Positions 1,386 through 52,643 of a DNA stretch of 64,000 nucleotides are shown piece after piece; the stretch's first letter is position 1, and every line of letters starts with the position of its first letter. A program made the translations under genes and the position numbers. The notes beneath the pieces were generated by a model. It had not been told where the DNA came from, did no database searches, and was given only the letters and a program-made list of their open reading frames with translations. Origin of the DNA: Mesostigma viride (lineage: Eukaryota > Streptophyta > Mesostigmatophyceae > Mesostigmatales > Mesostigmataceae); contig RPFO01000418.1 of the NCBI GenBank assembly GCA_009746045.1, positions 653,756-717,755 on the forward strand. The letters are read 5' to 3'.

Positions 1386-1608
1386 AGTTAACGTAAAGGA
1401 TTTACGTTAGATGGATAGAGATTGTTACGCTCTTTCCAACGGCACCTTGAACGCCCCATTTGGTTAAGGAACGTAAAAGTTATGACGTTTCCTAGGCTGT
1501 GCCGACAGTACCCGGCGCGCCACTGTGGGCGCGTACGGACACAGGATGTACAAGTGTCACTTTGATAGTCCGCAGGACGTTGACAGGACTTGTACAGGAC
1601 TTGATGGT

Positions 1609-1757
1609 CAATTGATAGGTAGGCGCACTGTAGCGCGCCAGGACCTATGAGACAATTGATGCTGACTAGTGTACGGATAGGTCCACAGGACTAGCCGTAT
1701 GGACAATTGATAGATCTGCGCGCCAAAGGCGTGCCAGAGTCTGTGTAATCAATTGAT
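1609..1757 (+). promoter_or_regulatory. Four CAATTGAT motifs in U3 of the LTR
   Basis: CAATTGAT occurs at 1609, 1653, 1704 and 1750, upstream of the TATA-like box, and again at the matching places in the right LTR. Recurrence of one octamer at 44-51 bp spacing suggests a factor-binding array controlling the element; this is inference. Confidence 0.5.
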
Positions 1758-1810
1758 TGACAGTTCAGCTGTGACAGTGCAGCTGAATACTTGGACGCGT
1801 CCCTAGTAAG

Positions 1811-1818
1811 CTATATGA
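1811..1818 (+). promoter_or_regulatory. TATA-like box of the LTR
   Basis: CTATATGA sits about 130 bp upstream of the AATAAA signal, a normal U3/R arrangement. The same sequence is at 9039-9046 in the right LTR. Confidence 0.5.
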
Positions 1819-1941
1819 GTGACTTGGTCACACCGGGACGCTAGTTCTTGCGTGCACGTTCTCTTGGCACTGCGACCCTGTCGTCTGTGCTGCGTGCAGT
1901 CTTGGAAGTGACGTGACTTACGTCTGTGTTTCCTGATTGTT

Positions 1942-1947
1942 AATAAA
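1942..1947 (+). terminator. AATAAA polyadenylation signal in the LTR
   Basis: AATAAA in the R region context of the 5' LTR; the matching copy in the right LTR (9170-9175) would end the genomic transcript. Confidence 0.55.
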
Positions 1948-2044
1948 GGCAACTTCCTGCAAGAACCATGGCGGAATTCGTGGCATTCTTACCCTCACAA
2001 CTCGTATTACAACTCGTATTCGTATTACACGCTCTGTCAAAAAG

Positions 2045-2755
2045 ATGCCAAATTCGGAAGAATTTCGGATTCCGGACGATGAGGAAATAGCCGCTCCGCC
2101 GGCTGGTTCTTCGTCAAGACCAACTGTGCCGTCGTGGCAACAATTGCTCGACGAAGTTACAGTTTCGCTCGACGAGCTTCATCGTCAGCAGCGTGCAGCT
2201 CACGCATTGCTCGGGGATAACCCCGAGGACCCCGATTTGCCAGCACTGGTGCCGGCAATCCGCAACCTGTTGGACCAGATTCGAAACATTTTATCGACAT
2301 TTACGGTCCAGGTGCGGGGAGGTTTGCGGTCGGTGACCGAAGTCACGACTGCCATTGAGGAGTTGGACAACGTCCTCTCTTCACTCACCGGTTACCAGAG
2401 AAACCTGCAAAACTGGGCATCGCTTCGCACGGGGGGCGCGCCGGCGGTGTCAACAAATTTGTTTCAGGATCTCGCGCTGTTATCGCTGCTCACTCGCGGC
2501 GTACGCAGTCGCGAGCGCCAGGTTTTAATTAACCTGGTGGCATTTCTCGCCTCTGTGCGAGAGTGGATTCCCGCGGGGTGGGAATTATTGACGATCTTTA
2601 CACATCCTCTGCGCCTCGTCGCGCGTCGGCGCGTCGCAACTTACGCGGCGGGGAGCACGCCGGTTTTAATTCATACCGGTGCAGGTCCGGAGCTGGATAT
2701 GGAGGATCGTGAGTTCGTATACACGTACTGCGACTTCAGGGGCCTTGACTACTAG
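2045..2755 (+). CDS. Extra ORF between 5' LTR and gag of the copia-like element
   Basis: 237 codons from an ATG 30 bp past the LTR. The frame is also open upstream into the LTR but the first sensible ATG is 2045. The product has an acidic Pro/Ser-rich N-terminus and then long Leu/heptad-rich helices (roughly residues 40-190), giving a helical, possibly coiled-coil protein. It has no zinc knuckle and no enzyme motif that I recognise. Its position before gag is unusual for Ty1/copia elements. It could be the capsid-forming part of Gag made as a separate protein, or an envelope-independent accessory protein; neither is shown. Confidence 0.65.
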   Translation: MPNSEEFRIPDDEEIAAPPAGSSSRPTVPSWQQLLDEVTVSLDELHRQQRAAHALLGDNPEDPDLPALVPAIRNLLDQIRNILSTFTVQVRGGLRSVTEVTTAIEELDNVLSSLTGYQRNLQNWASLRTGGAPAVSTNLFQDLALLSLLTRGVRSRERQVLINLVAFLASVREWIPAGWELLTIFTHPLRLVARRRVATYAAGSTPVLIHTGAGPELDMEDREFVYTYCDFRGLDY

Positions 2756-2924
2756 TCGGCCTAATTTTCTTCTGCAGTACTTGTCGACATTTTTTTTGTC
2801 GAATTTCGGCGGCAATTCGCGGGGCGGCAGCGACACCGGCGCAGGCGGCAGAGGCGACACAAAAATTTTGTACATATTTTCTGCTGCTTCGTTAAGGTGT
2901 TCTTTGAATAGCTGGTAGTGCAGG

Positions 2925-4037
2925 ATGGCTGAGGGACGCCGTAGCAAGGGTCCAGCCAGTGGGAATAATAATGGGGGTGCTGGTAGTGGAACCGCTCACG
3001 TAGATGACGTGGGGCTTACCGGAGAGATTACCAACCTTCCTCACAATAATAATAATGCACAAGCTATTCATGGCTTTGATCTTACCACACAGGGTCTTTT
3101 AATTGTCAATCAGTTGCAGCCTGTAACCTCAGACTCCAAGCCTAAGCAGGCTGAAGAGTTTGTGGAGGGATTGGAAGGGTTCCCTAGCTTGTACGGTGGT
3201 ACAAATTACTATCAAATCTGGATAGGCAGTAGCACTTTTGGCAAGTGTACTGACCAGATTAAGGACCTAACCAGGGAGTGCAAAAAGGCCAATAAAGCCT
3301 GGGCACTGTACGTGGCTGAGCTGAAGGAGCTGCTGGAGGATCAGAGGAAGAAGTGGGGATCCATTGGCAGGACAAATACCAGGGTGGGAGGTCAAGGGGG
3401 ACCTGATCCAGAACTTTCTCAACTATTGTAAGATGGTTGAGGAGGGCAGGGCTCACGGCTTTAATGTCGCTGATAACATAGCCCTAACCAACTGGCTCAA
3501 GGTTTCTGGGCTGGATAAGGCGACACGTGGCTCCTTAAAGTCATGTGTGCCCCACACTCTACCCTGAAGGCCTACAAGGTCATAATCAAACAAGCACTCG
3601 AGGCAGAGGAGCTGTTTGAGGGTGGAGTGCCAGCAGTGAAGGCTACCCAGGCAGGCGGGCGTACCCAGGGTGGCTCCAAGACGTCTGAGGCTGACCGAAG
3701 CCAAGGAGGGCGTAGGGGCAACCATCACAAGCGCAAGGGAGATCATTCACCTGATTCTGACAGGAGGTCACACTCCAAGTCGGTGTTCAGGCGGGTGGGT
3801 GGTCAGCCCAAGCAGGGCAACGCGTCTGACAATGGGGGCAGTGGCCAGGGCAAGTCCAAGATACAATGCTACCTGTGCAAGGGGTGGGGGCACATCAAGA
3901 AGGAGTGTCCCAGCTTCAAGAAGTCCCAGGGCCAGGGCAGCAACAAGAATAACAACAACAACAAGAAGAACAACAACAAGTCCCAGGCAGGCCAGCCTTC
4001 AAAGGGCAGTCAGCAAGAAGACAACAAGGAGCAGTGA
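2925..4037 (+). pseudogene. Copia-like gag with two frame breaks
   Basis: The gag region starts at ATG 2925 and ends with a single CCHC zinc knuckle (CYLCKGWGHIKKEC, near 3868-3910) followed by Asn/Lys-rich repeats, the nucleocapsid part that binds RNA. The coding signal moves from the first frame (2925-3360) to a second (about 3360-3545, containing NFLNYCKMVEEG) and back to the first (3545-4037). Two compensating one-base changes therefore interrupt it. Read as it stands, the first frame ends at 3431. The N-terminus is Gly/Asn rich. The element may need another copy for Gag, or the breaks are sequencing errors. Confidence 0.8.
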
Positions 4038-4178
4038 CTGTCTGAGGCAACCCCTACACACCTTAATTCACCCAAGGGGGAGGCCAGGTGCTCCAATGCA
4101 GATTTTATATCTGGGCAACAAGAGGGTGATCTCCAGGTTCAGTGTGGCCCCAGGTCACCTGGAGAGGTACAGGTTCCT

Positions 4179-7100
4179 ATGAAGACGTCCTTGACAGCTG
4201 ATGCAGCTGTAAGTATGTCTGACCCTATGCATCCTCGTGCTGGGCACGAGGGTGGACCTCTCATTTTGAGAGAAACCAATGTACAACCACAGAGGGGTGT
4301 GAAGGCCTCTGGTGGTATGCATGTGGTCCCTGCTGGCGGTCCAGGTGTTGGGCATGAGCAGGGTGACTCAGGCTCTGAGTCAGAACAGGATGGAAGTCAG
4401 CATGGTGATGCTGGACAACCTGACAGCACAGTCCTGACTGTGCCAGGGACTGCTTCCTCTGTGTACCAGGAGTTGGGTGCCCGAATCCACAACATGTTTG
4501 GGCATGCCACTTCTCTGTCAAACAACTTTGCCTTCCGTATGGGCAGGGCACCCCTTCTTAAGGCGTGTCAGCAAGCTGCCTCACGGTGTAAGTGCCAGTT
4601 GTCCTCCAACAAGCCCAGGAAATCACATGCCAAAGCTCTACCTCAGAGCATTGGTGATCTGCAGTGTGATATCCAACACATCAGGGGCATGCAACTGTTG
4701 GTGTGCGTGGACAGGTACACGAAATACAAGGTGCTAGAGCATTTACCTTCTATGAAGAACAGGTACTTGCTGGCTGCCCTGCAGAATGTAAGAGCCAAGT
4801 TTCCTACCACAAGGATCCAGGTGGACATGCAGTTTCAGCATCTCAAGGGTGATCCTACCCTTCCTGAGTTGCTGGTTACACCTAGGGAGGCTCATGGGCA
4901 GCAGGGTGCTATCGAGAGGGCAATCCAGGAGGTCAAGAAATTGATCATCTCTGAAGACTGGGTACCCTTGTCTGCACCTGCACTTGTCAGGAGTGCATGG
5001 CTGAGGAACGTGGAGCAGCAGCTGAACAGCAGGGTTAACTTCTACTATGATGGAGTTGCTGTCAGCCCAATGGGTCTATATCATGGCCTGTGCCCACCAC
5101 ATGTGCTGGAGGGCTGGAAACATGCTGCACATGTCACCTTTGCCAAGCTGAGGGAGAAGGACCGGGGTTGGAAGATGCTGGAGCCACAAGTGGGTCAGAA
5201 GGTCCTAGCTTGGAAGGAACCTAGCCTTTATGGCAAACGTGGTAGCTGGAGTCCTGGGGTGGTTACCCAGGTTGATGAAGCTAGCCACGCATGCTTGGTC
5301 AGCATGGAGGACGAACCAAAGCATGTACACCGGCTGAGTTGGTCATATGTCAAGCCTAACCTGATGAATGAGGGCAGTCAGGCACAAGGCTCACAGGATC
5401 TGCAGGATTTTCAGGTCCCAGGTGACATCACTGACGCAACGACCACATCTGTTGCAGGGGAATCTGTCAGCCCTGGCCAGGTTGCAGAGGTACTTGTTGA
5501 ACAGGCTGCAAGGTCAACAGCTGGGGAGTCAACTGTCAAGCCCAAGGCACTAACCAAGCCCAGGGGGACAAGTTTGGCTGGATTGATTGGGGCTCTACAA
5601 AGGGCCAAGAAGCAGCCCAAGGTAGCCAAGCTCAGGTGGCATGGCAATCTGGGGCTGGACACTGCCTTAGAGGTAGACACTAATTCTCAGGTCTCCATTA
5701 TTGGGACCAGGGCTGCAGCAGGGTACAGCATGTCTGAACCCAGCTATCAGTTTGTGTCTGACTTCAGTGGCGGGGTACACGTGAAGGTACTGGGTGAGGT
5801 ATTCATTCCTATCCTTGGACAGGACACTGCTTTTTGTGTCTTGGAGGGCTATCAAGGACCTGCTCTTCTGGGGCAGAATTTCCTATGCCAGGATGGGGTA
5901 GTGATCACGTCCTCTCTCCTGACTAAGGAAGGGGCTGGTCAGGTCCCACTGATTAATTTCAGGACCACTCACCTATCACGTGCAGTAACCAGGACGGTTA
6001 AGCGTGTGCAAGTGTGCCAGGGGCAGGAGCCCTTGGTTGATGACCTCATACTGCCAGCTGCTAGTCATCCAAGCAGTTTGGGCATTGGTCCTCACTCACT
6101 TGCTGGACACAGCCCTATCAACTACCAAGGCCTGGTGAAGCTCATGTCCTCTCCCATTATGTGTCCCCAGGTCACACTGGGTCTCATTAAATCTGGGGAG
6201 GATTGGATCTCCAAGAAATGCGTGGAACCTGTCAATGACCTGCCTCCTGCACGACGTCTACTCAAGCTCAAGTTTGTCATCAAGATGAAGGAGGTGGACG
6301 GGGTCAAGGTACCACATGTCAGGCCAGTGCTGAATGAGTTCAAGGGTACTGGTGAGTGCACTGCTGAGGAGTTGTATACCCCTGGCATGCTGCATGATAC
6401 TTGGAGGCTGCTGCTGTGTGTCTTTCTAGGCCTTCTCAACAAGGGCTTGGACTATGGCTCAGTGGTGATAGACTTCAAGAGGGCATTTCTGGAGGGTGAT
6501 GCAGATGTGGCACAGGAAAAGTGGGAGGGCAAGACGCCTTTCTATGTTAGGGTGCCTGCTGTATGGAAAAGGGACATCCACACGGAGTTCCTTAAAATCC
6601 TCAAGGGCCTGGAGGGCCTGAGGTCAAGTCCAATAATCTGGAGGGAGACTCTCAACCGTTTCCTGAAGGAGCATTGCAACTTGAAGGTCTCTCCTGTAGA
6701 CCCCTGTCTGTTTCTGGGGCAATGGGAAGGCCTGCCAGTGTATGCTTCGCTGCACGGGGATGACCTACATCTGATAGCTCCCACGTCGTGGCTTAAGGAG
6801 CTGATCACCATCATTAAGTCCAAGTTTCCTCTGGGTAGGGAGCAATGGCAGGTGGAGAATGAGCCTCTGCTGTTTGTGGGCATGGAGGCCACACTGGTGA
6901 AGAAGGGAGGGGAGTGGCGTATGCTGCTGGTGGGGGGCAATGACTATCAAGAGACCCTCATTAGCAAGCTTCCTCCAACCATCACACAGGCACTGTGTCC
7001 CATGGTGAGGGGCATGGTTGCTTGGGTGGCAGGCATTTCCAGGCCAGACCTTATGGTCATAGCCAGGTTGCCTGATGACATGCTGGTGGAGCTAGGGTCT

Positions 7101-7664
7101 GCCAAGGTGGCTGATCAGGTCAGGGCTTCATCTGGCATTCTGTTGTCTGCAGTGGATTTATCACAACCCATTTGCATGGAGCTGTATGTGGATAGCTCAA
7201 TGGACAGCAGGCAGGTCTCCAAGGTCAGGGGCAGGGCTGCAGGGCTCTTTGTGCTCAGACAGGAAGGCCTGGGGAGTTTGGTGAGCTGGTTTAGTCGCCT
7301 GCACAAACGGGTGGCTGTCAGCAGTGATGTGGCAGAATGCAGGGCTATTTGTGAAGGCATTCACACAAGCCTTTATCTGAAGGAGTTGCTTCATCAGATG
7401 ACTTCTAACACTCCTTGGCCACTTCAGGTTACCACTCTTCTAAAAACAGACTCCATGGGGATGGTGCAGTTTGTGCACAGGCAGATGGCCAGAAGTAGGG
7501 ACTTGGATTATCTCCTTCTTAAGGAGTTGTCCTCCTTGGCCAATATTGAGCATATCCCTGGGGTTGACAATCCTGCTGATGCTTTGACCAAGCTAGTGCA
7601 GAAGGCAGCAGTGCAATACAAGGTTCTTCAGTCTCTGATGGACCCATCTCAGCAAGCTGTCTAA
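4179..7664 (+). CDS. pol: Copia-like polyprotein: integrase, protease, RT, RNase H
   Basis: 1,161 codons. After a low-complexity leader, an integrase begins near residue 100: a zinc domain (HNMFGH, then a CKC pair), a catalytic core with VDMQF and a Glu in QQGAIERAIQEVKK. A retropepsin follows near residue 495 (ALEVDTNSQVSIIG, then LLGQNFL). RT starts near residue 670, with VVIDFKRAFLEG and an active site read as LHGDDL instead of YVDD. RNase H has YVDSS, AECRAI, LKTDS and a terminal HIPGVDNPADALTK. RT and RNase H are clearly Ty1/copia-type, but that superfamily normally reads PR-IN-RT-RH. Here the protease is after the integrase. The frame is intact. Confidence 0.92.
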   Translation: MKTSLTADAAVSMSDPMHPRAGHEGGPLILRETNVQPQRGVKASGGMHVVPAGGPGVGHEQGDSGSESEQDGSQHGDAGQPDSTVLTVPGTASSVYQELGARIHNMFGHATSLSNNFAFRMGRAPLLKACQQAASRCKCQLSSNKPRKSHAKALPQSIGDLQCDIQHIRGMQLLVCVDRYTKYKVLEHLPSMKNRYLLAALQNVRAKFPTTRIQVDMQFQHLKGDPTLPELLVTPREAHGQQGAIERAIQEVKKLIISEDWVPLSAPALVRSAWLRNVEQQLNSRVNFYYDGVAVSPMGLYHGLCPPHVLEGWKHAAHVTFAKLREKDRGWKMLEPQVGQKVLAWKEPSLYGKRGSWSPGVVTQVDEASHACLVSMEDEPKHVHRLSWSYVKPNLMNEGSQAQGSQDLQDFQVPGDITDATTTSVAGESVSPGQVAEVLVEQAARSTAGESTVKPKALTKPRGTSLAGLIGALQRAKKQPKVAKLRWHGNLGLDTALEVDTNSQVSIIGTRAAAGYSMSEPSYQFVSDFSGGVHVKVLGEVFIPILGQDTAFCVLEGYQGPALLGQNFLCQDGVVITSSLLTKEGAGQVPLINFRTTHLSRAVTRTVKRVQVCQGQEPLVDDLILPAASHPSSLGIGPHSLAGHSPINYQGLVKLMSSPIMCPQVTLGLIKSGEDWISKKCVEPVNDLPPARRLLKLKFVIKMKEVDGVKVPHVRPVLNEFKGTGECTAEELYTPGMLHDTWRLLLCVFLGLLNKGLDYGSVVIDFKRAFLEGDADVAQEKWEGKTPFYVRVPAVWKRDIHTEFLKILKGLEGLRSSPIIWRETLNRFLKEHCNLKVSPVDPCLFLGQWEGLPVYASLHGDDLHLIAPTSWLKELITIIKSKFPLGREQWQVENEPLLFVGMEATLVKKGGEWRMLLVGGNDYQETLISKLPPTITQALCPMVRGMVAWVAGISRPDLMVIARLPDDMLVELGSAKVADQVRASSGILLSAVDLSQPICMELYVDSSMDSRQVSKVRGRAAGLFVLRQEGLGSLVSWFSRLHKRVAVSSDVAECRAICEGIHTSLYLKELLHQMTSNTPWPLQVTTLLKTDSMGMVQFVHRQMARSRDLDYLLLKELSSLANIEHIPGVDNPADALTKLVQKAAVQYKVLQSLMDPSQQAV

Positions 7665-8594
7665 GCTGGTGCATGGTTATAGGGCATTGGAGAGCAGATT
7701 GTGTGGTAGTGTCAGCATTGTGACTGGCATAATACCTGTATTTTAGTCTGTACTAAGGCTCATGGACCATGGTACACTCACTCTGATTTTAATCAGGATA
7801 CAGCCAGGTTTTGGCTGGGGTTCATGCTGTTGACTACACAAGGTTGACAGGTCCATTACAGACCATGTATTCTATTTTAAAAGAAATGTATATTTGTACA
7901 TACTTCTCACAATGGTCTGGGAACCTTTATTCTGGGGTTTATAGGGCGGGGTTCGATTCCCTGGTATTATGTTTCTACAAGCTGGCCTGTTCAGGTGTTT
8001 GCCTGTTCAGACTTCCCTAGTTCCCCAGGGCAGGATTTAATTGTTGCCTATGTGTTTCATTTTGTCATTTGTTTGCTGTGGCAGTTTACCATCTGGCAAG
8101 TAGACGGGCGCCGTAAGACGGGCGCCAATAGACCCCTGTTGAGAGAATGACAGGCAAACTATTGTAATACGCCTTACTTTGTCAAGTGGTATTTTAATTG
8201 TCATGGATTTATTGTACTTATATTGAATATGTACTGGGTTTTATGGGATTAGTATCTGGGATTAATGTAACTCACCGCCAGAAGGTCATTGTACTGGAGG
8301 CTCTACCGAGGTGATGGGATTAATTCCTGGAGAAGACCTCATAGAATTAACCTGTATGTATTTAATTTTGTGTGCTTCTAATATCTGGTGGTACTCTGTA
8401 ATGCCACTTCCATAGGTTTTCTCCATTTCTCATGAAATGGTTTTCCCTGTGGCAGATCTGTTTCTTTTCCAGTTCCTTAAAAGAAAGGGCTGGGGGAATG
8501 GCATTGGCCATTAAAGACATCTGTTCAAGCTTCAAGCTGGAGTGAAGGACATTTCAAGCTACTTCAAGGGTCCCTGGCAGGGGATGTGACCCCT
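7665..8594 (+). other. Non-coding 3' region of the copia-like element
   Basis: About 930 bp without a convincing reading frame. It holds a short direct repeat of AGACGGGCGCC at about 8102-8127, and at 7947-7963 a GGTTCGATTCC segment whose flanks pair as a 5-bp stem like a tRNA T-arm. No complete tRNA fold is visible. I see nothing else supported. Confidence 0.6.
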
Positions 8595-8609
8595 AAAGAA
8601 AAGAAGGGA
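8595..8609 (+). other. Polypurine tract next to the 3' LTR
   Basis: AAAGAAAAGAAGGGA, all purine, ends four bases before the right LTR. It is the expected primer site for plus-strand DNA synthesis by the element's reverse transcriptase. Confidence 0.75.
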
Positions 8610-8613
8610 TTGG

Positions 8614-9242
8614 AGTTAACGTAAAGGATTTACGTTAGATGGATAGAGATTGTTACGCTCTTTCCAACGGCACCTTGAACGCCTCATTTGGTTAAGGAAC
8701 GTAAAAGTTATGACGTTTCCTAGGCTGTGCCGACAGTACCCGGCGCGCCACTGTGGGCGCGTACGGACACAGGATGTACAAGTGTCACTTTGATAGTCCG
8801 CAGGACGTTGACAGGACTTGTACAGGACTTGATGGTCAATTGATAGGTAGGCGCACTGTAGCGCGCCAGGACCTATGAGACAATTGATGCTGACTAGTGT
8901 ACGGATAGGTCCACAGGACTAGCCGTATGGACAATTGATAGATCTGCGCGCCAAAGGCGTGCCAGAGTCTGTGTAATCAATTGATTGACAGTTCAGCTGT
9001 GACAATGCAGCTGAATACTTGGACGCGTCCCTAGTAAGCTATATGAGTGACTTGGTCACACCGGGACGCTAGTTCTTGCGTGCACGTTCTCTTGGCACTG
9101 AGACCCTGTCGTCTGTGCTGCGTGCAGTCTTGGAAGTGACGTGACTTACGTCTGTGTTTCCTGATTGTTAATAAAGGCAACTTCCTGCAAGAACCATGGC
9201 GGAATTCGTGGCATTCTTACCCTCACAACTCGTATTACAACT
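8614..9242 (+). repeat. 3' LTR of copia-like element
   Basis: 629 bp, same ends and same internal signals as the 5' LTR, followed directly by the CCAAT duplication. Confidence 0.95.
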
Positions 9243-9247
9243 CCAAT
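9243..9247. repeat. Target-site duplication CCAAT, right copy
   Basis: Right-hand copy of the 5-bp duplication flanking the LTR retrotransposon; it lies inside a codon pair of the interrupted viral gene. Confidence 0.9.
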
Positions 9248-15860: not shown

Positions 15861-16059
15861 GTGGGTCATATATCTTTTAATCGGTATTGTATTGTCCGGT
15901 GCAGCTGCATCCGGTGGGTATGGAGGCTACAAAGTTCACGAGGGTCGACAAAAGAATGATACCAAGTCTACGCAACTTGGAACGTTTCTGATCGCACTAT
16001 GTATTGCGATCTTAGCAATAATGATAAACATTGCGTTTATCATTAAGTTTACTCCTTAG
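15853..16059 (+). CDS. Small membrane protein, two membrane segments
   Basis: 68 residues. Segments WVIYLLIGIVLSGAAASGG (3-21) and FLIALCIAILAIMINIAFII (46-65) separated by a charged Lys/Asp loop, giving a hairpin topology. No family recognised. Confidence 0.65.
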   Translation: MKPWVIYLLIGIVLSGAAASGGYGGYKVHEGRQKNDTKSTQLGTFLIALCIAILAIMINIAFIIKFTP

Positions 16060-37547: not shown

Positions 37548-37980
37548 GAAAAGAAAAGAGGCCGACCTTAGCTAGGTGGGTTTGTTTTTGTCCTTTTTTG
37601 CGTGTCATGCGGCCTTGGCCCGGACGGCATTTTTTCGCCACGCAAATGTTGCGTCTGAACAAATGACGCCATGTGGCGTTCTAATTGCCGGCAGCTTACG
37701 TAAGGCTGCCGGGGCTATTAGGTCACATATTGCGTGAGAGAAAGAATCTAGATCTAGTTAATCACTACGCCATGAGCCAAGAAACCTAGACAGTGGCAGG
37801 TTTATATCTCAACGTAGCTCCTGCCACCTGGCCAAGAAAAAACTGGCCAAAGCTTTGGCCACGACTGATCCGGATCAGGCCGCACCGGCCTCAAAAGGTT
37901 TGTCACGTGAACCCAATAACCTAGCTATAGCGGCTACCCTTCCATCTCACTATAAAGAAACTATGTTCAGAGAACCACGA
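37548..37980 (-). repeat. Element 1 split repeat A, internal copy
   Basis: 433 bp identical by eye to 42452-42884. Contains several palindromes, for example CTGATCCGGATCAG and CCGGCAGC facing GCTGCCGG around TTACGTAA, and TGGCC/GGCCA inverted repeats. Confidence 0.9.
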
Positions 37981-37981
37981 T

Positions 37982-38117
37982 TCTATTAACCGTGGAACTC
38001 CAGGGTAACCAGACTCTTTATTAAAACAATGAGTGGAGCACATACAAAAGGCAGGCCACATCCCGGCCGCCGATGCTCATGGGAACACTTATTGCTTGGC
38101 AAAGGCTAGCCTTACCC
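37982..38117 (-). repeat. Element 1 split repeat B, internal copy
   Basis: Second copy of the 136-bp repeat, joined to repeat A by a single T as in the presumed circular intermediate. Confidence 0.9.
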
Positions 38118-38189
38118 TTATATCCCTCCCTGGCGATCCATGCCAGGGGCAAAGAACCTAGCATAATGACAGAGAAATGAACAACCAAA

Positions 38190-41633: not shown

Positions 41634-42364
41634 GACCGGATTCCCATCCCATTGTCGCTGGCGTCCTCCAACACCCCCGGCAGCACCCGCTCCGAAACCC
41701 GATATTTCACGCTCTTGGCTCGGCTTGGCAGCGCCACCCCTTTCGAGGCCTTGAAGTGGCTTCCCGCCCCCTCCATTCCTCCCAGCGCTGCCTTCAAACC
41801 TTGCATGAATTTCTCGGCTGCGACCTCCCCCTCCTCGTCCTCCTCGTCGTCCTGATTTTCGGTTTCCGGAGGTGCCCCAACGAATGTCGCCAACCTCGCC
41901 CTCATTTCCTTTCCGACAGCCCCCCCACCTGCCGAAACCTTGGCCGCGCCTTTCGGCTTGGCCATTTTTCGCTGCGCAGGTGTCGTTGGTGGCAGCGCCT
42001 GATCCTCCTCGTCCGCCGCGAGATCTGCCACGGCCAGCAGTTTTGCCACCAACGTTCCGTTTGGGTCACGTGCGTCCAACACGTCGCCAACATCAACGTG
42101 ATCGGCCAGCAACTGCACGACAGACTTCAGCTGGCTCGAGCTCCACGAGCTGGCGTCCGTCACCCAGTCCTCGGCACCGAAGACCTGCTCGACTGCCCCC
42201 ACCGCCTCTGCGGGGCTGATGCACTTGGCGAGCAGAGTGGCGAGCTGCTTCTTTTTGGCGCTGAAGGCGACTGGCGCGTGACTGGCGGCAGCAGCCCGCG
42301 GTGTGGGCGTCCCGTCCTCCCCGCGCGCTGCCTGCCCTCCTGTAGCTTTGCGCCCCTTCGGCAT
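41312..42364 (-). CDS. Element 1 Gag-like protein
   Basis: 350 residues from ATG 42364, first gene of the element. Basic Gly/Lys-rich N-terminus, acidic DEEDEEGEV stretch near residue 165, then a helical domain with NGMGIRSWVMTVKPGNWRN and MNIALAMDTLLKELGSAAGEL that is strongly conserved in element 2. No zinc knuckle. The position and the conserved helical domain point to a capsid-type Gag. Confidence 0.82.
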   Translation of the reverse strand: MPKGRKATGGQAARGEDGTPTPRAAAASHAPVAFSAKKKQLATLLAKCISPAEAVGAVEQVFGAEDWVTDASSWSSSQLKSVVQLLADHVDVGDVLDARDPNGTLVAKLLAVADLAADEEDQALPPTTPAQRKMAKPKGAAKVSAGGGAVGKEMRARLATFVGAPPETENQDDEEDEEGEVAAEKFMQGLKAALGGMEGAGSHFKASKGVALPSRAKSVKYRVSERVLPGVLEDASDNGMGIRSWVMTVKPGNWRNMENRKIVMNIALAMDTLLKELGSAAGELVGMEYLMRVVAALLQVEGQGGGGWKVASHLLPLGEEAALSATPAVKAALQTAILLDKLSKAQQVGK

Positions 42365-42451
42365 TGCTGCTCAGGGCCAAAAATGGCTCCGACAGTACAG
42401 GTTCGTCAAACCAGAGGTTCGTTTCCCCTGGCTTGCTGTCGCCGCCCTCGT

Positions 42452-42884
42452 GAAAAGAAAAGAGGCCGACCTTAGCTAGGTGGGTTTGTTTTTGTCCTTT
42501 TTTGCGTGTCATGCGGCCTTGGCCCGGACGGCATTTTTTCGCCACGCAAATGTTGCGTCTGAACAAATGACGCCATGTGGCGTTCTAATTGCCGGCAGCT
42601 TACGTAAGGCTGCCGGGGCTATTAGGTCACATATTGCGTGAGAGAAAGAATCTAGATCTAGTTAATCACTACGCCATGAGCCAAGAAACCTAGACAGTGG
42701 CAGGTTTATATCTCAACGTAGCTCCTGCCACCTGGCCAAGAAAAAACTGGCCAAAGCTTTGGCCACGACTGATCCGGATCAGGCCGCACCGGCCTCAAAA
42801 GGTTTGTCACGTGAACCCAATAACCTAGCTATAGCGGCTACCCTTCCATCTCACTATAAAGAAACTATGTTCAGAGAACCACGA
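42452..42884 (-). repeat. Element 1 split repeat A, terminal copy
   Basis: 433 bp, 5' end of the element in its own orientation. Identical by eye to 37548-37980. Confidence 0.9.
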
Positions 42885-42885
42885 T

Positions 42886-43649: not shown

Positions 43650-45611
43650 ATGGTTGCCGTCCCTCAAGATTTACTAGAGCGGATGGTTCGCATGTTTCCG
43701 GATCAGTCAACACTCAAATCTGAACCTGCCAATCCGGAAACGCATCCGGATACGATTATAAAGAACGCGTATGAGCGAAATATTTTGCCAGCATACGCGA
43801 TCGAAGGTAATGGACTGTACGGTAACAAAAACGGTCACGTGACTGAAGAAGGGGACACGTGGAAGTCTATCTCAGAAAAATTCGGGGTATCTGTGGATGA
43901 CCTTATTATCGCAAATCCTCATCTTTCTCCCCTCGTTTTGGCGCCGAATAGTTTTATTCTTCTACCCAAGCGGTTCACGTTTCCTGACTTTGTCGAAGGC
44001 GTCATTCATCAGGACAACAACATGGACTTGTGGTCCGGAGTCGGCGAAGATAAAGGAGAAGACCCTGGTGGAAAAGGGATGGGAATGATAGAGGCACTTA
44101 AATACGCTTGGAACAACCCTAGACAAGCCGCGCAATCTGCAGTCGGTATCGCTAGACAGACAGCGAACAACCCATGGAAAGCTGCCACGCTTGGAATGAC
44201 GGGTGCGGCAACGTTTCTTAATCCCATGAACGCTGCTAATCTCGTCGCAGTTGCCAACGCAAATCGAAACAACGACTGGAAAACTTCGCTCGCTTACGCT
44301 ATTCCCAGTCTTCTTGGCGGAGTGGGTGCCGCCGCAGGTTTCATACCGGGTATGAAGGGTGTTGGGAACGCTTTGACGTACGCTTCTGGTCTTTCAAACA
44401 CATCCATGGGCAGGTACGGAACAATGGCCGCTTTGGACGCGGGTCACGCGTACTCCAACTCGAGAGCAGGACAAGGTCTACGTGCTGCTGGCATGTCCCT
44501 CGCGAACAACGCTGCCGGAGCTGCGTTGCAGATGGCCGCTACGGATGAACGAATCGGATCAATGCTGAACACGTTCGGCATAACGAATGTGTCGCCCTCG
44601 AAGCTGTCTGCATACATCAATATGTACGGACCCGCTGTTGTTGAACGATTCTTGCCACGCGACATGCATCAAATGGACAAGCGCGATGCCATGACAAAGC
44701 TAATGACAGCATTCACAAAGCGGTCTTCTTTAATGGAATACATGAACCCTGACATGGCTGTCGAGTCTCTGGGCGATGCGTGGAACTTGTACGGTCTCGG
44801 AAACGGGCCGACTCAGCGGCAACAACGTGCATTTGATGAAAGGTTGAAAAACCAGGTACAAGACCAAGGTGTAGTTGACGTCGATTTTCAAGAACGCAAT
44901 ACACCAGAAAATCTGAGAGACCTTGTAATCGCTGCTAAAAAATATAGGGTTCCTGGAGGGACCATCGATCAAATCATGAGCGGTAGTGGTGATAAAGCGT
45001 ACAATCTAACGCAAGCAATTGATCGACGGTATGCAATTGATGACTTGAAAGAGGACTGGGCACGCGTGTCCGATCCAGTACACGACCATCCGGATAACGT
45101 CAAACGACTAGTCGATGAAGCTAGAAGTTATGGGATTTCAGAGAAAGATATTAATGACGCTCTTCAGATCCAGACCGGTGGACAAGGTGGTAACCTCACC
45201 AGCTTGATCGATGAAAATTATAGAGGCCCGGGACAATCTCCTTATGACCCTCTGAATCTTAATAATGGATTCACAGAGTTGCCATGGGACGGAACCGATC
45301 TTCTTACACAACTCGAAAAAGACCGGCTGTTCCGCAAGAGGGACGGGAAGTTATACGAAATGTACCGTGACATGACTAACAAACTCGGACCGCAAGATGC
45401 TAGAAAGCTCGATGCTTGGTATGACAAGCTTATAGACAGTGACAAAAACACGTGGTCGTCTATGATGACGGAGCCTGGCAACTTCATTGGTCGACAGAAT
45501 CGGGCGTTTGAAGCAAATCGAAACATTAACAATTACAAGGGTTCTGTAGATCCCGCGTATTATCGAAAGCTCCGTGACCTTATTGCACAGAGAGGACAAT
45601 TCCGTCGCTAG
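43650..45611 (+). CDS. LysM-domain protein, probable virion protein
   Basis: 653 residues. A LysM-like domain (about 66-112: EEGDTWKSISEKFGVSVDD, LIIANPHL, NSFILLPKRF) binds glycans such as chitin or peptidoglycan. Residues about 145-330 are Gly/Ala/Asn-rich helices of low complexity, and the C-terminal half is charged. There is no signal peptide. Its place beside the MCP genes suggests a virion role, perhaps cell-wall contact. The 3' end overlaps MCP1 by four bases. Confidence 0.8.
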   Translation: MVAVPQDLLERMVRMFPDQSTLKSEPANPETHPDTIIKNAYERNILPAYAIEGNGLYGNKNGHVTEEGDTWKSISEKFGVSVDDLIIANPHLSPLVLAPNSFILLPKRFTFPDFVEGVIHQDNNMDLWSGVGEDKGEDPGGKGMGMIEALKYAWNNPRQAAQSAVGIARQTANNPWKAATLGMTGAATFLNPMNAANLVAVANANRNNDWKTSLAYAIPSLLGGVGAAAGFIPGMKGVGNALTYASGLSNTSMGRYGTMAALDAGHAYSNSRAGQGLRAAGMSLANNAAGAALQMAATDERIGSMLNTFGITNVSPSKLSAYINMYGPAVVERFLPRDMHQMDKRDAMTKLMTAFTKRSSLMEYMNPDMAVESLGDAWNLYGLGNGPTQRQQRAFDERLKNQVQDQGVVDVDFQERNTPENLRDLVIAAKKYRVPGGTIDQIMSGSGDKAYNLTQAIDRRYAIDDLKEDWARVSDPVHDHPDNVKRLVDEARSYGISEKDINDALQIQTGGQGGNLTSLIDENYRGPGQSPYDPLNLNNGFTELPWDGTDLLTQLEKDRLFRKRDGKLYEMYRDMTNKLGPQDARKLDAWYDKLIDSDKNTWSSMMTEPGNFIGRQNRAFEANRNINNYKGSVDPAYYRKLRDLIAQRGQFRR

Positions 45612-47230
45612 TTTAAGAATGTCTTTCGAGCGTGTCCGTTTGAAATCTCAAAAATGTTCAAAACGCGAGCGTACACATGAACGCGCCCGTTCGACATGAT
45701 TGGACCCTCTCTAACTCCTGGCAAGTTTTTAAAAAACAAACGAAGGGTCGCCCTGTCCACTTTGCTGAAGTTAATGCTTCCCGTGGGCTGGTCTTCTTCA
45801 GGCTTTAGCGAAAACGGAATAAAGTACACCATCTCAAAGTTGTTTTCGACAGGTATGCGTCGATGGAACTCGGCAGGCAAAAAAAAGTTGAACCAAAGAG
45901 GGTCCCTCGGAGGTGAGAACAGATCGCCGTTATTAAGAGTCAGCGTCGCGCGGTCAAAAAAAGCATTGTCAATGTGCACCATCTGCTTTCCGTACGTGCG
46001 CACAAAATAACGACCACGATCGATCATGTCGTTTTTCGCAAATGGACGATTTCCTTCAAAGTTCCAGTATTCTTCGTTTGCGTTCTTTTCATCGCTGCCT
46101 TCTAGACGACGATGGTCGGCCCTGAAGAAAAATATGAGCTCTTTACACGCTCCCGAAATCGGGTCTAACGAAAGGTCCTTGATTAGCTTGTCTCGTTTGG
46201 TGAGCGGGAACTCGAGGTGCTTTGTCTCCGTTATCAGGTACGAATGCGTGCCTTTGTTGAATTGAGCTCGTTCGAAATCGTCCAAAAGTATGTAGCGCGT
46301 GACGAGGCGTACTGCGCGCAGGTCACCTCCTAATTCTGATCGCATCAACTGTTCGCCAGTGTCTGTAAGGCCAGAGTTCACGTCGCCCTCAAAAATCGTC
46401 ACGGGTTTCCGCACAAACCGCTCTGGATCGACTGAAGGGGCAGTCTTGAACGGGATTTTCTCCATGTAGCTCAAATAGTCTTGACGGAGCGGCTTTGCAC
46501 TCATCTTTAACACGACTTCCACGTCGTGATACTGAATCGCAGCAATCGGTAGTGCGTATCCCGCCTCTTTGTTGAAAAAGAAACGCAGAGGGACGTAAAC
46601 ATGTTGATCGTGCATGGTTCCAATGTTACCGACGCCTCCGTGCTCTGAAGGCAGACCCTGTATCACGCTCAAATCTGAATTACGTGTCACGCAATCCCAA
46701 ATGCGTAGAAAATCGCCTGTGTGGCTGTCAATCATGTTTCCGCCGACCCACAATTCGACCGTGTTTGTCAACACGTAACCAAGGTAGTCGATCCAAGCGG
46801 GTTGGAATGACTCGTGTGTGATCCCATCGTAATCCGCATCCGCTAACAACGGATAATTAGACGCCTTGAACGCCGCGAGTGTCCTCGTAGTCACAGTTTC
46901 GAGGCCTGGATTCGTCGGAGTGACTCCGTCCTCATCCACAGCGTTCTTGTCTACGTGAACTTGCATAACCCCGTAGTTAAGTTTTGTGATATTGAAGTAA
47001 AGATACATCTGCGTCACTAAATCGCCAATCCTCGGTATCTTGAACTTAACTTGGCCTCCGTACATGGGAACCACGTCGGGCAAAATTTCGACATCGGTCC
47101 AGCTAAAATTTGTGTGACGGGAAAACACGGACTTGAAAAAAGTCTTCTCTGGATCGACTGTGAGGAAGGTGTCAAAAGCCCCCTTGGCTTTCAGCCAAGT
47201 CAGATGGGCCGTAATGTTTTGAGAAGCCAT
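45608..47230 (-). CDS. Major capsid protein paralogue 1 (double jelly-roll)
   Basis: 540 residues. The N-terminus has the family opening (FLTVDPEKTFFKSVFSRHTN, then KFKIPRIGDLVTQMYLY). The second jelly roll is marked by YILLDDFERAQF, KELIFFFRAD, NGDLFSPPRDPLWFNFFLP and a C-terminal VHVYARVLNIFEISNG. These are the conserved blocks of Nucleocytoviricota MCP, which builds the icosahedral shell as trimers. The C-terminus lacks the SGMGGKR ending shared by the other three copies. Divergent from MCP2, from which element 2 now separates it. Confidence 0.95.
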   Translation of the reverse strand: MASQNITAHLTWLKAKGAFDTFLTVDPEKTFFKSVFSRHTNFSWTDVEILPDVVPMYGGQVKFKIPRIGDLVTQMYLYFNITKLNYGVMQVHVDKNAVDEDGVTPTNPGLETVTTRTLAAFKASNYPLLADADYDGITHESFQPAWIDYLGYVLTNTVELWVGGNMIDSHTGDFLRIWDCVTRNSDLSVIQGLPSEHGGVGNIGTMHDQHVYVPLRFFFNKEAGYALPIAAIQYHDVEVVLKMSAKPLRQDYLSYMEKIPFKTAPSVDPERFVRKPVTIFEGDVNSGLTDTGEQLMRSELGGDLRAVRLVTRYILLDDFERAQFNKGTHSYLITETKHLEFPLTKRDKLIKDLSLDPISGACKELIFFFRADHRRLEGSDEKNANEEYWNFEGNRPFAKNDMIDRGRYFVRTYGKQMVHIDNAFFDRATLTLNNGDLFSPPRDPLWFNFFLPAEFHRRIPVENNFEMVYFIPFSLKPEEDQPTGSINFSKVDRATLRLFFKNLPGVREGPIMSNGRVHVYARVLNIFEISNGHARKTFLN

Positions 47231-47321: not shown

Positions 47322-47381
47322 TCTATTAACCACATCCTTACCCATGGGAACACTTTATGTCCAAAAAGGCTAGCCTTACCC
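47322..47381 (-). repeat. Element 2 split repeat B, terminal copy (shortened)
   Basis: 60 bp; keeps the first ten and last 50 bases of the 133-bp internal copy, lacking about 73 bp in between. Confidence 0.85.
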
Positions 47382-47414
47382 CCAAACAGGCAACACACAG
47401 GGAGGGCGGGTGGG

Positions 47415-47793
47415 AAAACAAAAGAGACCGCCATGAGCTAGGTGAGCAAGCTTTTATCGTGTTTCAAGGCCAACGGCTCTCTACCAACGGCCAGATCCGG
47501 CAACGGCCTCTAAACAGTTTTAGCCGTCAAGTTTTACTTCAGATATTGCCTGTTGCAAACCCGTCCGCAATCACAGATCTGCTAGGAGAACCTAGACGCA
47601 AAAATCCGTCGTCAAGGTACTCAGCACACCGTCAAGGTATGGGCCGCAACAATTAGGCCATATCTTCCGTAATACTCGTACACTAGAAGCCTAATCAACC
47701 TTATTACGATCACATCACCCAGCTCTATTTCACCTAGCATCAGCGGCTCCCCTTCCGTATCACTATAAAGAAACTATGTTCAGAGAACCCCGA
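47415..47793 (-). repeat. Element 2 split repeat A, internal copy
   Basis: 379 bp identical by eye to 52258-52636. Confidence 0.9.
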
Positions 47794-47794
47794 T

Positions 47795-47927
47795 TCTATT
47801 AACCGTGGAACTCCAGGGTAACCAGACTCTTTATTAAAACAATAAGTAGAGCACATCGGGAAGTGGCCCTCAACTGGCCATCCTTACCCATGGGAACACT
47901 TTATGTCCAAAAAGGCTAGCCTTACCC
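47795..47927 (-). repeat. Element 2 split repeat B, internal copy
   Basis: 133 bp; starts TCTATTAACCGTGGAACTCC, the same as repeat B of element 1, then diverges in the middle. Confidence 0.9.
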
Positions 47928-48003
47928 TTACATCCCTCCCTGGCGACCCAAGCCAGGGGCAAAACAAAAACCGGTGGACGCATAAGACAAGAATGAAGGG
48001 AAC

Positions 48004-51000
48004 TTAAGAGGAAGGCAGAGAAAAGACGCTCCGCCAAATGCGCGGGGGGCAGGCGGCGATAGCCCGAACCAGGGCGTCAGGAAGGGTGAGGGCCAAGCTC
48101 CGGTGCAATCCCACATAGTGGGCGACAGTTTTGCTGCTGCGCCAGCGACCCCGATGCTGAATATCAGCCATGCTGCGCTGCCGCAAAAAATCATAGGTAG
48201 CCCCCCCATGCCGCAGCCCGTGAATGGTAAACACCGTGTCGACCCCCAAAGCTTGCGTGGCCTGATGCCAAACCCGGCTGAACTGGGCATAATCGTAAGG
48301 GAACACCCGCTCCCAGGCCGCCTTGCCACGCATACAAGCCCGCAAGAGGGTCTCAGTCATGACATCCTCGATCACCACAGACTGCACCTCCCCCTTAGCC
48401 GTCTTAGCTGACATCAACAACAAGGCGCCCCGCTGCGAACCCCGCAACCGAACATCAGGCTGCAAGCGCACATGGCCGACCAACAGGTTGAGCGCCTCCG
48501 ATACCCGCAGGTATTGTTGGAAAATAACGATGACCATCATAGCCGCACGAGGCTGCCGCTGGAGCACCATAGTACAAGCAAGCGCAAACGCAGCCTCCCA
48601 TGGAATGGGGGGGGGGCACGAGGGGGTGCCAACGTGCGCCAGCCAGCCAAAACACTTCGTGCCAAGGCCCAATCCCGCACCTCCCGGGGGAAGTACAAAT
48701 TCAGGCCCATAAGCGCATTGACACACAACTGGCGGCTGTAACACCGTGAGTGCGCCCAAGCGACATACTCGCAATAGTATTCCTCTATCGTCAAGCCGCG
48801 CAACAAGCTGCCAACCCGACCCCGCCGGCTCGCCCACCATGCGAAAAAGGACCTAAGACCCCGATGGTAAACCATCAAAGTAGCCGGCTTCACCTTGCCC
48901 TCAAGAAGGGTCAAGTAGCTAGCGCCAAGCCGAGGCCCGGGATTGGGATGAACACCCTCGCGAGTCAAATCGCGGACCCACCCGGCCACCGAGGCAGCCA
49001 TGGAAAGCCCCCGCGAAGGCCCATCCGCAGGCTGAAGCTCACTTGGCGTCCAGACCCATTGTGAGCGGCTGCCGGTGACCAACGTAAGAGCGCACAACCG
49101 GCGGCATTGCTTGTTTAACCGGTAAGAAGAGGAACGCCCTTTAGCCAAGCAGCCCAAAGCGGCAGTGGAGTCCACTAACCTCACCACCCGCTTACCCCAT
49201 GTTCCGAGGTTCCGGGCCGAGCGCTCCACCCCCTTCACAGCGGCCCGCACTTCCTTCTCGTTGATGTGCATGGTCGAATCGCGCCAGCGACTCTTGATCC
49301 CGACGCGCCATCGCCCGTGGATGATGGCTTTTTCCGCGGCCTTGGTCAAGGGTCTAGGCCCGGCATACATGGCCTCACCTGGGGTGAGGAGGGTTGGGTA
49401 ACCCCGCACCTCCCGGGCCCGAGCTAATTCCGTCACCTCAGCTGGGGCCATCTCAGCGTAGACAACCCCCTGCCCAAAACTAGACGCATCCGAGGCCACC
49501 ACCACCGGAGCCAGGGCAGCCCCCCGGTCCACACGGAGCATGGGGGCCAACGCCATGGCACACTCGAGCTCATCGCGCACACCTTGCCACAAAGGTCGCG
49601 TTCGCTGGCCCCACCCCTTGAGGTTGATGAACTTAAAACTCTGCTGCCATATGGACAAGCAAGTGCGGCTGAGCATCTGCAGCCACACCCACCGGCCCAC
49701 GACGGCCGCCAGCGCCTCAGCGGTAGCGCGTCCCCTCTCGAGGAGTACACGAGTGTGCGCAACCACAAGGGTGAGCTGCTTAGCTGTCGGCTCCAACACC
49801 CCATCCCGCCGGTGAACAACACCCAGAGCTTCTAGCTCGTCCTCCCCCTCCGGGCTAGCCATGATCGTCTTGTCCTTGGAGGGCACAAGGTTGTTAGGCG
49901 CGTACCCGTCTTCAATAGCACTCGCGATTAAGCGATTCACCGCCTCGCACGTGCGCCCATTGCTGACCACCAGGTCATCAATAGTGATGGATACCATAGG
50001 GGCAGGGGGGTCCTCAAGGTCGATTTGCATCTCCCTCGTGCTCTCCTCCTTGTACTCGATGGCTAGGGCGGTTGGGTTACCCCATGCATTCCGAAGCACG
50101 GTCAGCTCCCCTACACTTGTGAGGCGGTTCACCTGCCGTCTAGGATCCAAAGCGCCCGTGGCATAGAGGACCATCTCATGGATGGCTTCCCCTAGCGCTA
50201 CAGCGTGGGAGTGCCCCATGGCCAGCACTTTCAGCACTGGCCACACCCTCCTCCGCCGCCCCGGCAGCCCGACATCGGTGGACCACACATCAGGTAGCCC
50301 TTGATAATCCCACCACCACTCCGGCACTTGGATGGTATAGTAATACGAGACCAGATCGCTCTTGGCCGTGTAGCACCGACCCTTGATATAGACCTCCGAG
50401 TATATGCCCAGGTGGGGTAACACCGTCTTAGGGGGGTCCACCCACAGTGCGTTCCCCAACTTCTTATTCACAATGAGCCTTAACTCCCCCACTCCTTTGG
50501 CCACCCCAAAACATCCGTCTACCCACTTTGGCCGCGTCTCTCGGAACTCCACCATCCCCACGTCCGCTGCCCTCCCCATCAACTTGCCCCACTCCGCCAT
50601 GGTGCACCCTCGGCTGGGGGCAGGTACATTCCAATACCTCGCACTGGCAGCCACCTCCGGCTTGATGCAGTTGGCTTCGCTCGCGTACACCTCTCGCCAA
50701 CTAGGTCGTAGCGCCAGCAAATCCAGCAGCTTCGCCTTTCCTGCCACCTCGCGCTTCGGCAGACTCACCCGCTCCGCCACAAGTTGTTCATACTTATTAC
50801 ATTTCCCATAGATTAGATCACTTCCTTCTGCGGGGCCTGTCGCAACGCCGGTTACGCGGCGACTGTACCACTCGCAGTGCTTCTTGACCCTTTTCAGGGC
50901 CTCCGCCGTTCCTCTGGAGCACGCGCCTCCAGATTTAGGCGGAGGGTCTGCCCCCCCGTGCCATAGCCAATTCAACCACGTAATCACCTTGTGTTGTAGA

Positions 51001-51518
51001 GTGAAGGTCCGGCGGCGGCGAGTTGCACGCTGGCGTCTGCGTGCTGACCTCACTCTCCCCCACGTAGTGCTTAGAGGCATTGTAGGAAGAGGCAGTGGGA
51101 AGGGGGAGCGGTTTACCCTTTCGGTGTTTACTTGGTTTGCTGGGCCTTGCCCAGCTTCTCCATCATCGTGGCGCTTTGCAGGGCCATCTTCATGGCCGGG
51201 TTGCTCACCAAGGAGGCATCTTCCTTGAGAGCAAGGAGGTGGCCAGCCACCTTCCACCCTCCTGACCCCTGGCTCTCCACTAGGAGCATGGCTGCCACCA
51301 CCCTCATGAGATACTCTACCCCAGCCAACTCCCCGGCTGCCGGCCCCAACTCCTTGAAGAGTGTGTCCATGGCCAGGGCGATGTTCATGACCACCTTCCT
51401 GCTTTCCTGGTTCCTCCACCCCCCTTGGCGAGTAGCCATGATCCAACTCTTTATCCCCCCTCCATTGTCGTTGGCATCCTCGAGCACCTCGGGGAGCACT
51501 CTCTCTTGCACCCTCCAA
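48004..51518 (-). pseudogene. Element 2 polyprotein: RT, RNase H, recombinase, frameshifted
   Basis: RT (KSDLVSYYYTIQVP, SITIDDL) and RNase H (VVASDASS, INEKEV, LVDSTAALG, LQPADG) match element 1. A 2A-like EGVHPNPGP precedes the tyrosine recombinase. The frame breaks on a G run at about 48607-48616: the first part ends at 48537 and the recombinase continues in another frame to 48004, with YLRVSEAL, HGLRHGG and GRWRSSKTVAHY intact. Element 1 has no break here. The first part again overlaps gag in the -1 frame. Confidence 0.88.
48933..48962 (-). other. 2A-like peptide between RNase H and recombinase, element 2
   Basis: EGVHPNPGP at the same domain boundary as in element 1, embedded in TREGVHPNPGP; conserved while the surrounding linker has changed. 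Confidence 0.5.
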
Positions 51519-52186
51519 TTCACCACTTGTGCTCGAGTGGGCAGCGTCACCCCTTTGGTCTTTTTCGGCTTCCTGGAAGCCCCATCTGCCCCGGCCAGCG
51601 CATCCTTCAATTTCGTCAGGAAATCCTCTTCCTCGGACTCCTCCTCCTCCTCCTCTTCTTTGCCCGCCTGCCCCTGCTTGCCAATAATAGCCGCCAGCTC
51701 CAAGAGCTGCTCCCTCACATCCCCCGCGGCCTTTCCCTTGCTCGGGGCTGGGCTTCCGACTTTTTTCGTCCCCTTTTTCGCCCCTTTCGTGGGCCGGCGT
51801 GGTGGCTGCATCTCCTCTTCGTCCGAGTCCGCCAAGTCCCGGGCGCTTTGGAGGGCTGCCACTAGCGCTTCGTTTGGGTCCGCTGCTGCCAGAATTTCAG
51901 GCCCGTCCACGTGGTCGACCAGCAGTCCAACGACGGACTCCAGCTGGGCCGCAGACCACCGGCTGACAGTAGTTACCCAGTCGGTCCCGAGGACCGCCTC
52001 AAAGGCAGCGCACACTTCAGGCAGGCCCGAGCAAGTGGAGAGCTCCTGATGGAGCCTTTTCTTCTGCGTCGGCCAGCCTAGTCGGCCCTTTCCCGTCTGT
52101 TTAGTAGCTGTCGGCACCTCGGGATTAGCTTTCGGTAATTGCTTCCCAGCACCTGTCGAACCTGGCTTCCGCCCGGGCTTCGGCAT
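51128..52186 (-). CDS. Element 2 Gag-like protein
   Basis: 352 residues from ATG 52186. Basic N-terminus, a Lys/Gly-rich stretch, an acidic run (KEEEEEEESEEEDF) and a helical C-terminal domain (NGGGIKSWIMATRQGGWRN, MNIALAMDTLFKELGPAAGE) aligned with that of element 1. The last 130 codons overlap the polyprotein in the -1 frame. Confidence 0.82.
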   Translation of the reverse strand: MPKPGRKPGSTGAGKQLPKANPEVPTATKQTGKGRLGWPTQKKRLHQELSTCSGLPEVCAAFEAVLGTDWVTTVSRWSAAQLESVVGLLVDHVDGPEILAAADPNEALVAALQSARDLADSDEEEMQPPRRPTKGAKKGTKKVGSPAPSKGKAAGDVREQLLELAAIIGKQGQAGKEEEEEEESEEEDFLTKLKDALAGADGASRKPKKTKGVTLPTRAQVVNWRVQERVLPEVLEDANDNGGGIKSWIMATRQGGWRNQESRKVVMNIALAMDTLFKELGPAAGELAGVEYLMRVVAAMLLVESQGSGGWKVAGHLLALKEDASLVSNPAMKMALQSATMMEKLGKAQQTK

Positions 52187-52257
52187 CCCAGCCGCTTTGC
52201 AGAAAGGAATTCTGGGCGTCAGCTACGCTGCCCCTGACCCCTGTCGCCGCCTTCGTT

Positions 52258-52636
52258 AAAACAAAAGAGACCGCCATGAGCTAGGTGAGCAAGCTTTTAT
52301 CGTGTTTCAAGGCCAACGGCTCTCTACCAACGGCCAGATCCGGCAACGGCCTCTAAACAGTTTTAGCCGTCAAGTTTTACTTCAGATATTGCCTGTTGCA
52401 AACCCGTCCGCAATCACAGATCTGCTAGGAGAACCTAGACGCAAAAATCCGTCGTCAAGGTACTCAGCACACCGTCAAGGTATGGGCCGCAACAATTAGG
52501 CCATATCTTCCGTAATACTCGTACACTAGAAGCCTAATCAACCTTATTACGATCACATCACCCAGCTCTATTTCACCTAGCATCAGCGGCTCCCCTTCCG
52601 TATCACTATAAAGAAACTATGTTCAGAGAACCCCGA
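52258..52636 (-). repeat. Element 2 split repeat A, terminal copy
   Basis: 379 bp, 5' end of element 2 in its own orientation. Identical by eye to 47415-47793. Confidence 0.9.
52607..52613 (+). promoter_or_regulatory. TATAAAG in the element 2 terminus, upstream of MCP2
   Basis: TATAAAG ends 30 bp before the MCP2 ATG and points towards it. It belongs to the transposon end, not to the original viral promoter, which stays 5.3 kb away on the other side. Whether it drives MCP2 is unknown. Confidence 0.4.
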
Positions 52637-52643
52637 TTTATCC

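Follow-up and report, generated by a model that had tools for sequence, protein, structure and literature searches.

Host retrotransposons inside a giant-virus provirus of the streptophyte alga Mesostigma viride

The locus described here raises the question of how transposable elements come to lie among the genes of a giant virus. Within a window of 64,000 nucleotides of the Mesostigma viride genome (the whole stretch of DNA analysed), viral genes stand side by side with three retroelements and one palindromic foldback element. A first-pass annotation had put forward two readings: an endogenised giant virus colonised by host elements, which it considered likely, and a virus acting as a vehicle for host retroelements. 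In many cases it is hard to tell whether a giant-virus genome acquired its host elements prior to endogenisation or only later. Related situations have been described in other protists. Endogenous virophages of Cafeteria burkhardae carry Ngaro retrotransposons (Hackl et al. 2021, PMC8547959), and giant endogenous viral elements of Euglena gracilis were invaded by transposable elements, which according to that study is possibly a common theme of giant-virus proviruses (PMC12455990). For Mesostigma, no paper on giant viruses was found among those listed from the open-licence literature.

The searched assembly comprises 439,911,974 bp in 2,243 contigs and was built from PacBio reads (N50 11.2 kb) and optical maps (PMC6947507). 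The window is located on a host scaffold, C1535, of 2,957,239 bp.

1-64000, no strand: the window, equal to C1535:653,756-717,755, interior of the provirus C1535:572,293-770,744

The provirus measures 198 kb and is bounded by inverted terminal repeats at C1535:572,293-579,978 (7,686 bp) and 763,060-770,744 (7,685 bp), whose two copies exhibit 0 mismatches and one 1-bp indel. A TPR-HSP70 gene is located on the same scaffold outside the left virus end. Host scaffold, TPR-HSP70 gene and defined inverted-repeat ends together identify the locus as a giant-virus provirus integrated in a Mesostigma viride host chromosome. No target duplication is apparent by eye at the virus ends. Viral stretches combine dense ORFs with a CpG O/E of ~1.2-1.4, and most of the outer flank DNA shows ~0.6-0.9. 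Inside the provirus, the stretch at C1535 ~616.8-631.8 kb has host-like composition, mostly low CpG and few ORFs, and probably represents further insertions. A DDE_3 transposase domain is encoded by a 1,188-aa ORF at L020:3082-6645, in a segment of virus-like DNA from the provirus region.

The viral nature of the window is documented by the following genes.

35535-36671, plus strand: VLTF3-like late transcription factor (PF04947, 157 bits)
45608-47230, minus strand: Major capsid protein ORF (Pfam)
52644-54323, plus strand: Major capsid protein ORF (Pfam)
54365-57577, plus strand: Major capsid protein ORF, 1070 aa (Pfam)
57520-58896, plus strand: Major capsid protein ORF (Pfam)

All four capsid-protein ORFs exceed both Pfam capsid cut-offs. 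Thus the window holds double-jelly-roll capsid proteins together with VLTF3, the combination by which a giant endogenous viral element (Nucleocytoviricota) is recognised, and the giant-virus genes reported in the first pass are confirmed. Among solved structures, the best full-length match is a 437-aa capsid (entries 3kk5, 6ncl and 8h2i), and 1m4x (PBCV-1) matches as well; a capsid search of a phage collection gave no match. A candidate for an A32-type packaging ATPase at 59067-59882 scores 24.6 bits for AAA_10, below the cut-off of 27.5.

The leftmost insertion is a Ty1/copia-like element with a complete pair of long terminal repeats.

1386-9242, plus strand: LTR element, delimited by its LTR pair and the target duplication
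1381-1385, plus strand: left copy of the CCAAT target duplication, 5 bp (a single CCAAT at 10 of 10 empty sites)
1386-2014, plus strand: 5' LTR, 629 bp
4179-7664, plus strand: LTR-element ORF, 1161 aa, with a candidate copia-type RT (RVT_2, below cut-off)
8614-9242, plus strand: 3' LTR, 629 bp
9243-9247, plus strand: right copy of the CCAAT target duplication (empty-site comparison)

The assignment is based on LTRs of 629 bp and a short target duplication, the 5-bp CCAAT. The RVT_2 match in the ORF (E = 3.8e-06, 27.1 bits) stays under the cut-off of 31.6. No integrase family matched this ORF, in which an integrase-like stretch before the RT was seen by eye only. The two LTRs differ at 3 of 629 positions. 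The comparison with the family covered two of these three sites in 10 of 14 other elements, with 8 LTRs unreadable at one site. At both sites the base of the window's 3' LTR is private, and the other base occurs in 20 of 20 and 12 of 12 readable LTRs. Polymorphism within the family was therefore rejected as the source of the mismatch at two of the three sites, as the other family LTRs lack the window base, and judged from these alignments the two checked mismatches look like new changes or base errors. Another member of this LTR family, 95-97% identical, lies on the minus strand of the same provirus at C1535:720,879-728,704, with 0 differences in 586 LTR bases compared and, by eye, an apparent 5-bp duplication GTAAT.

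The foldback element interrupts a viral gene.

16639-17505, no strand: foldback (palindromic) element, 867 nt, with the duplication GTGAC at 16634-16638 and 17506-17510
16121-16750, plus strand: Rieske-domain ORF (Pfam) in viral DNA, interrupted by the foldback; 8 of 10 sister copies have a frame that runs through the empty site without a stop

It forms a near-perfect palindrome composed of three 206-nt palindromes and two spacers, and thus unites the long inverted repeats and the flanking target duplication that characterise foldback elements. The spacers appear tRNA-like by eye, and no tRNA was called anywhere in the window. The CpG O/E of the element (0.98) is intermediate between that of the retroelements and that of viral DNA. 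The element is presumably of host origin. There is a resemblance between its ends, AGTTAGG...CCTAACT, and those of the LTRs, AGTTAACG...ACAACT. As both elements are also flanked by 5-bp duplications, a single integrase may move both. In the neighbourhood of the foldback, between the PhyH-like and the Rieske ORFs, the window has ~116 bp (~15957-16072), where the four sister copies C1657, C618, C14 and C1106 have in common a differing stretch of ~316-325 bp.

The two remaining retroelements, A and B, are of the Ngaro type.

37387-42885, minus strand: Ngaro-type element A, 5,499 bp, without target duplication (split repeats, empty sites)
38190-41633, minus strand: element A ORF with RT/RNase H-like motifs (by eye), NPGP peptide and tyrosine recombinase (PF00589)
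41312-42364, minus strand: first ORF of element A, 350 aa, in Gag position, no Pfam match
47322-52637, minus strand: Ngaro-type element B, 5,316 bp, without target duplication (split repeats, empty sites)
48004-48840, minus strand: tyrosine recombinase ORF of element B (PF00589)
48537-51518, minus strand: RT/RNase H-like ORF of element B (motifs by eye)
51128-52186, minus strand: first ORF of element B, 352 aa, in Gag position, no Pfam match

In ORF orientation, element A is arranged as A1 (437 nt), ORFs, B1 (137 nt), A2 and B2, and element B is built alike, its outer B repeat being shorter than in other B copies. The split direct repeats extend over 437 nt in A (99.8% identical) and 385 nt in B (99.7%), and the two elements share 74% identity across ~3.7 kb. 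The recombinase matches to PF00589 reach 29.6 bits in A and 29.2 bits in B, above the cut-off of 27.1. Split repeats of the form A1-[ORFs]-B1-A2-B2, a tyrosine recombinase and insertion without target duplication place both elements in the Ngaro/DIRS order. Ngaro elements are distinguished from DIRS1 by having no methyltransferase domain. In the scanned ORFs of A and B, Pfam returned no match to such a domain, in a scan that missed the RT too. No RT family reached threshold in Pfam, NCBIfam or solved structures; an IDD motif and RNase H-like motifs were seen by eye. The RT/RNase H-like protein of B is 100% identical over 632 aa to the Mesostigma gene model Mv14978, labelled Mesvir1 in another data set. 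The recombinase ORF of B is in a different frame from the RT-like ORF, which corrects the first-pass description of this element. Both Ngaro-type elements encode, between the RNase H-like and recombinase parts, a peptide (I/V)HPNPGP, which by eye we take to resemble 2A peptides; near it, a profile weakly matches a chain of Omono River virus (E = 0.0016). Of the 6 sister copies in which the frame was read at the site of element A, 4 are open across it, and element B ends 6 bp ahead of the capsid start codon at 52644.

Related viral copies elsewhere in the genome allow the insertion sites to be inspected in their empty state. These sister copies were located with viral-only queries, among incomplete lists of matches from one of which the window's own locus is absent. 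The LTR-element site and the foldback site are exactly empty in 10 of 10 sister copies read, each with a single 5-bp target. The sites of A and B are exactly empty in 7 of 7 copies each, counted without the near-identical sister copies C2135 (for A; contig end) and C916 (for B). In three more distant copies, with junctions too diverged for reading at base level, the spacing is too tight to accommodate B. Of the copies read, only the window provirus has any of the four insertions. Conversely, the viral copy on C1668 has a private insertion of element B, with 100% identity across the end pieces read, at a place that is unoccupied in the window, and the copies on C113 and C1668 each contain a further element family at different places. 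The empty sites confirm at base level the junctions of the three retroelements and the foldback, which had been described as lying in or beside viral genes. This inventory of four insertions holds for the window and needs correcting for the provirus, where one or more additional LTR elements of this family lie outside it.

A search of the host assembly for the same elements, a check proposed already in the first-pass annotation, returned near-identical copies of all three retroelements throughout the genome. Besides those in the window, there are at least 14 for the LTR element (2 of them partial), at least 23 for A and at least 24 for B; these numbers are lower bounds, as only the best 15 of 2779, 25 of 1320 and 24 of 1300 candidates, respectively, were scored. 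The CpG O/E amounts to 0.47 for the LTR element, 0.74 for A and 0.77 for B, compared with 1.23-1.35 in viral segments. On account of the near-identical copies and the CpG-poor composition, the three retroelements are host elements. The surroundings of other A and B copies were compared with the window provirus by means of one-sided 1-kb flanks (one of 596 bp) from 40 of the 47 further copies on the lists (A, 20 of 23; B, 20 of 24). The reference consisted of the provirus less segments L016, L019, part of L020, the outermost end repeats and withheld letters: 0 of 40 flanks matched by blastn or tblastx. A virus-like CpG O/E of >=1.2 was found in 4 of the 40. The idea that A and B favour viral DNA, as some Cafeteria types do, was rejected for these 40 flanks, in which other kinds of virus would go unrecognised.

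Concerning the origin of the sister copies, 40 of 64 candidate viral ends were scored, two of which are the window provirus's own, and facing ends occur on five scaffolds. Of the 22 viral ends read, 13 differ from one another in their flanks, and the other 9 have a single flank in common. Among the 13 are ends on C113, C1657 and C1668, scaffolds on which viral copies with empty sites were read, so that these represent separate integrations. Given the 13 distinct flanks over ~98 bp compared, the sister copies cannot all stem from segmental duplication, which may still account for the 9 ends with a common flank and for copies beyond the ends read. The capsid region matches many further places in the genome at ~69-75% DNA identity, and so several related virus lineages have probably been endogenised in Mesostigma.

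A 13.3-kb palindrome (C1535:770,790-784,111; arms 99.7% identical) starts ~45 bp past the right viral end of the window provirus, and the flank on this side is the one common to 9 of the 22 ends, over ~95 bp compared. Its own ends, TACTAC...GTAGTA, are like the viral ends. It may be a viral telomere, a concatemer junction or a separate element.

We consider it very probable that an endogenous giant virus was colonised afterwards by active host transposable elements. Host scaffold, genome-wide copies, empty sites and the private element B elsewhere all support what the first-pass annotation had regarded as the likely course. Insertion after integration is the simplest reading, and we infer this order as well as the insertion enzymology. 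A giant virus with terminal inverted repeats, its capsid nearest to PBCV-1 among solved structures, integrated into the nuclear genome of Mesostigma viride, the window provirus being presumably one of many integrations of related viruses in this host. The LTR retroelement would have been inserted by an integrase with a 5-bp staggered cut, the two Ngaro/DIRS-type retroelements via a tyrosine recombinase without target duplication, and the foldback element with a 5-bp duplication. To these host elements the provirus would be just one of many targets, and their insertion breaks or separates viral genes.

One comparison stands against insertion after integration: the LTR pair has 3 mismatches in 629 bp, versus 0 substitutions in the 7,685-bp end repeats. 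Under equal clocks, the probability that all three changes fall in the LTRs is (629/8314)^3, or ~4e-4, and the LTR element may therefore be older than the most recent homogenisation of the end repeats. Any one of three things would explain the discrepancy: end repeats smoothed by gene conversion or during assembly, erroneous bases in the LTRs, or an insertion that preceded integration. The last of these leads to the virus as a vehicle: one or more elements, the LTR element being the likeliest candidate, would have inserted into viral DNA first and reached this host locus with the integrating virus. We regard this as improbable. Shared insertions lend it no support, as none of the four is found in any sister copy read, and what speaks for it is the clock mismatch, to which it can add that the LTR changes are private rather than family variants at two of three sites tested, and that with separate integrations (13 of 22 distinct flanks) private insertions could in principle precede integration. 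Yet the retroelements are CpG-poor like host repeats and common outside the window provirus, and the end repeats have possibly been evened out by gene conversion or assembly. Relatives of the LTR-element and element A proteins were not found in viral contigs, but the same search also missed the capsid protein control.

That the elements were joined to viral DNA only through repeat misassembly is highly unlikely, even though the retroelements are high-copy and many viral copies reside on contigs of ~26-121 kb: misjoins would not be expected to yield target duplications of exactly 5 bp or empty sites that agree to the base, and the read N50 and optical maps of the assembly (PMC6947507) exceed each window element. 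Hardly any credence can be given to the idea that the elements are genes native to this virus lineage. They do sit among dense viral genes, but their absence from every sister copy read refutes it, and the retroelements are spread genome-wide and differ in composition.

Endogenous giant viruses invaded by transposable elements are already known, and colonisation of the Mesostigma provirus is an unusually well-resolved instance. As in Cafeteria (PMC8547959), GC-rich elements with split repeats A1-[ORFs]-B1-A2-B2 and a tyrosine recombinase reside in genes and intergenic DNA of protist endogenous dsDNA viruses, but the target is a giant-virus provirus here and virophage there. Some Cafeteria Ngaro types, moreover, prefer viral loci (type 1, 91%; PMC8547959), in contrast to the 40 flanks of other A and B copies, none of which matches the window provirus, other kinds of virus being unrecognisable in them. 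With Euglena gracilis (PMC12455990) the locus shares host-wide selfish elements in or beside giant-virus proviruses; what that study describes are mainly transposase and recombinase genes near the edges, whereas here retroelements are mapped to the base and accompanied by empty sites in sister copies. From Amoebidium, too, giant viruses are reported to have integrated repeatedly into a host genome rich in transposable elements (PMC11244446), in work centred on methylation, while our data concern CpG content alone.

The present case extends the record to a streptophyte alga that harbours several large proviruses with inverted repeats at their ends. Should the LTR element have entered before integration, a giant virus would have transported an active host retroelement from cell to cell. 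Because a single genome offers ~40 related viral ends along with sites resolved to the base in both the empty and the filled state, the question of whether host elements enter before or after endogenisation becomes directly testable.
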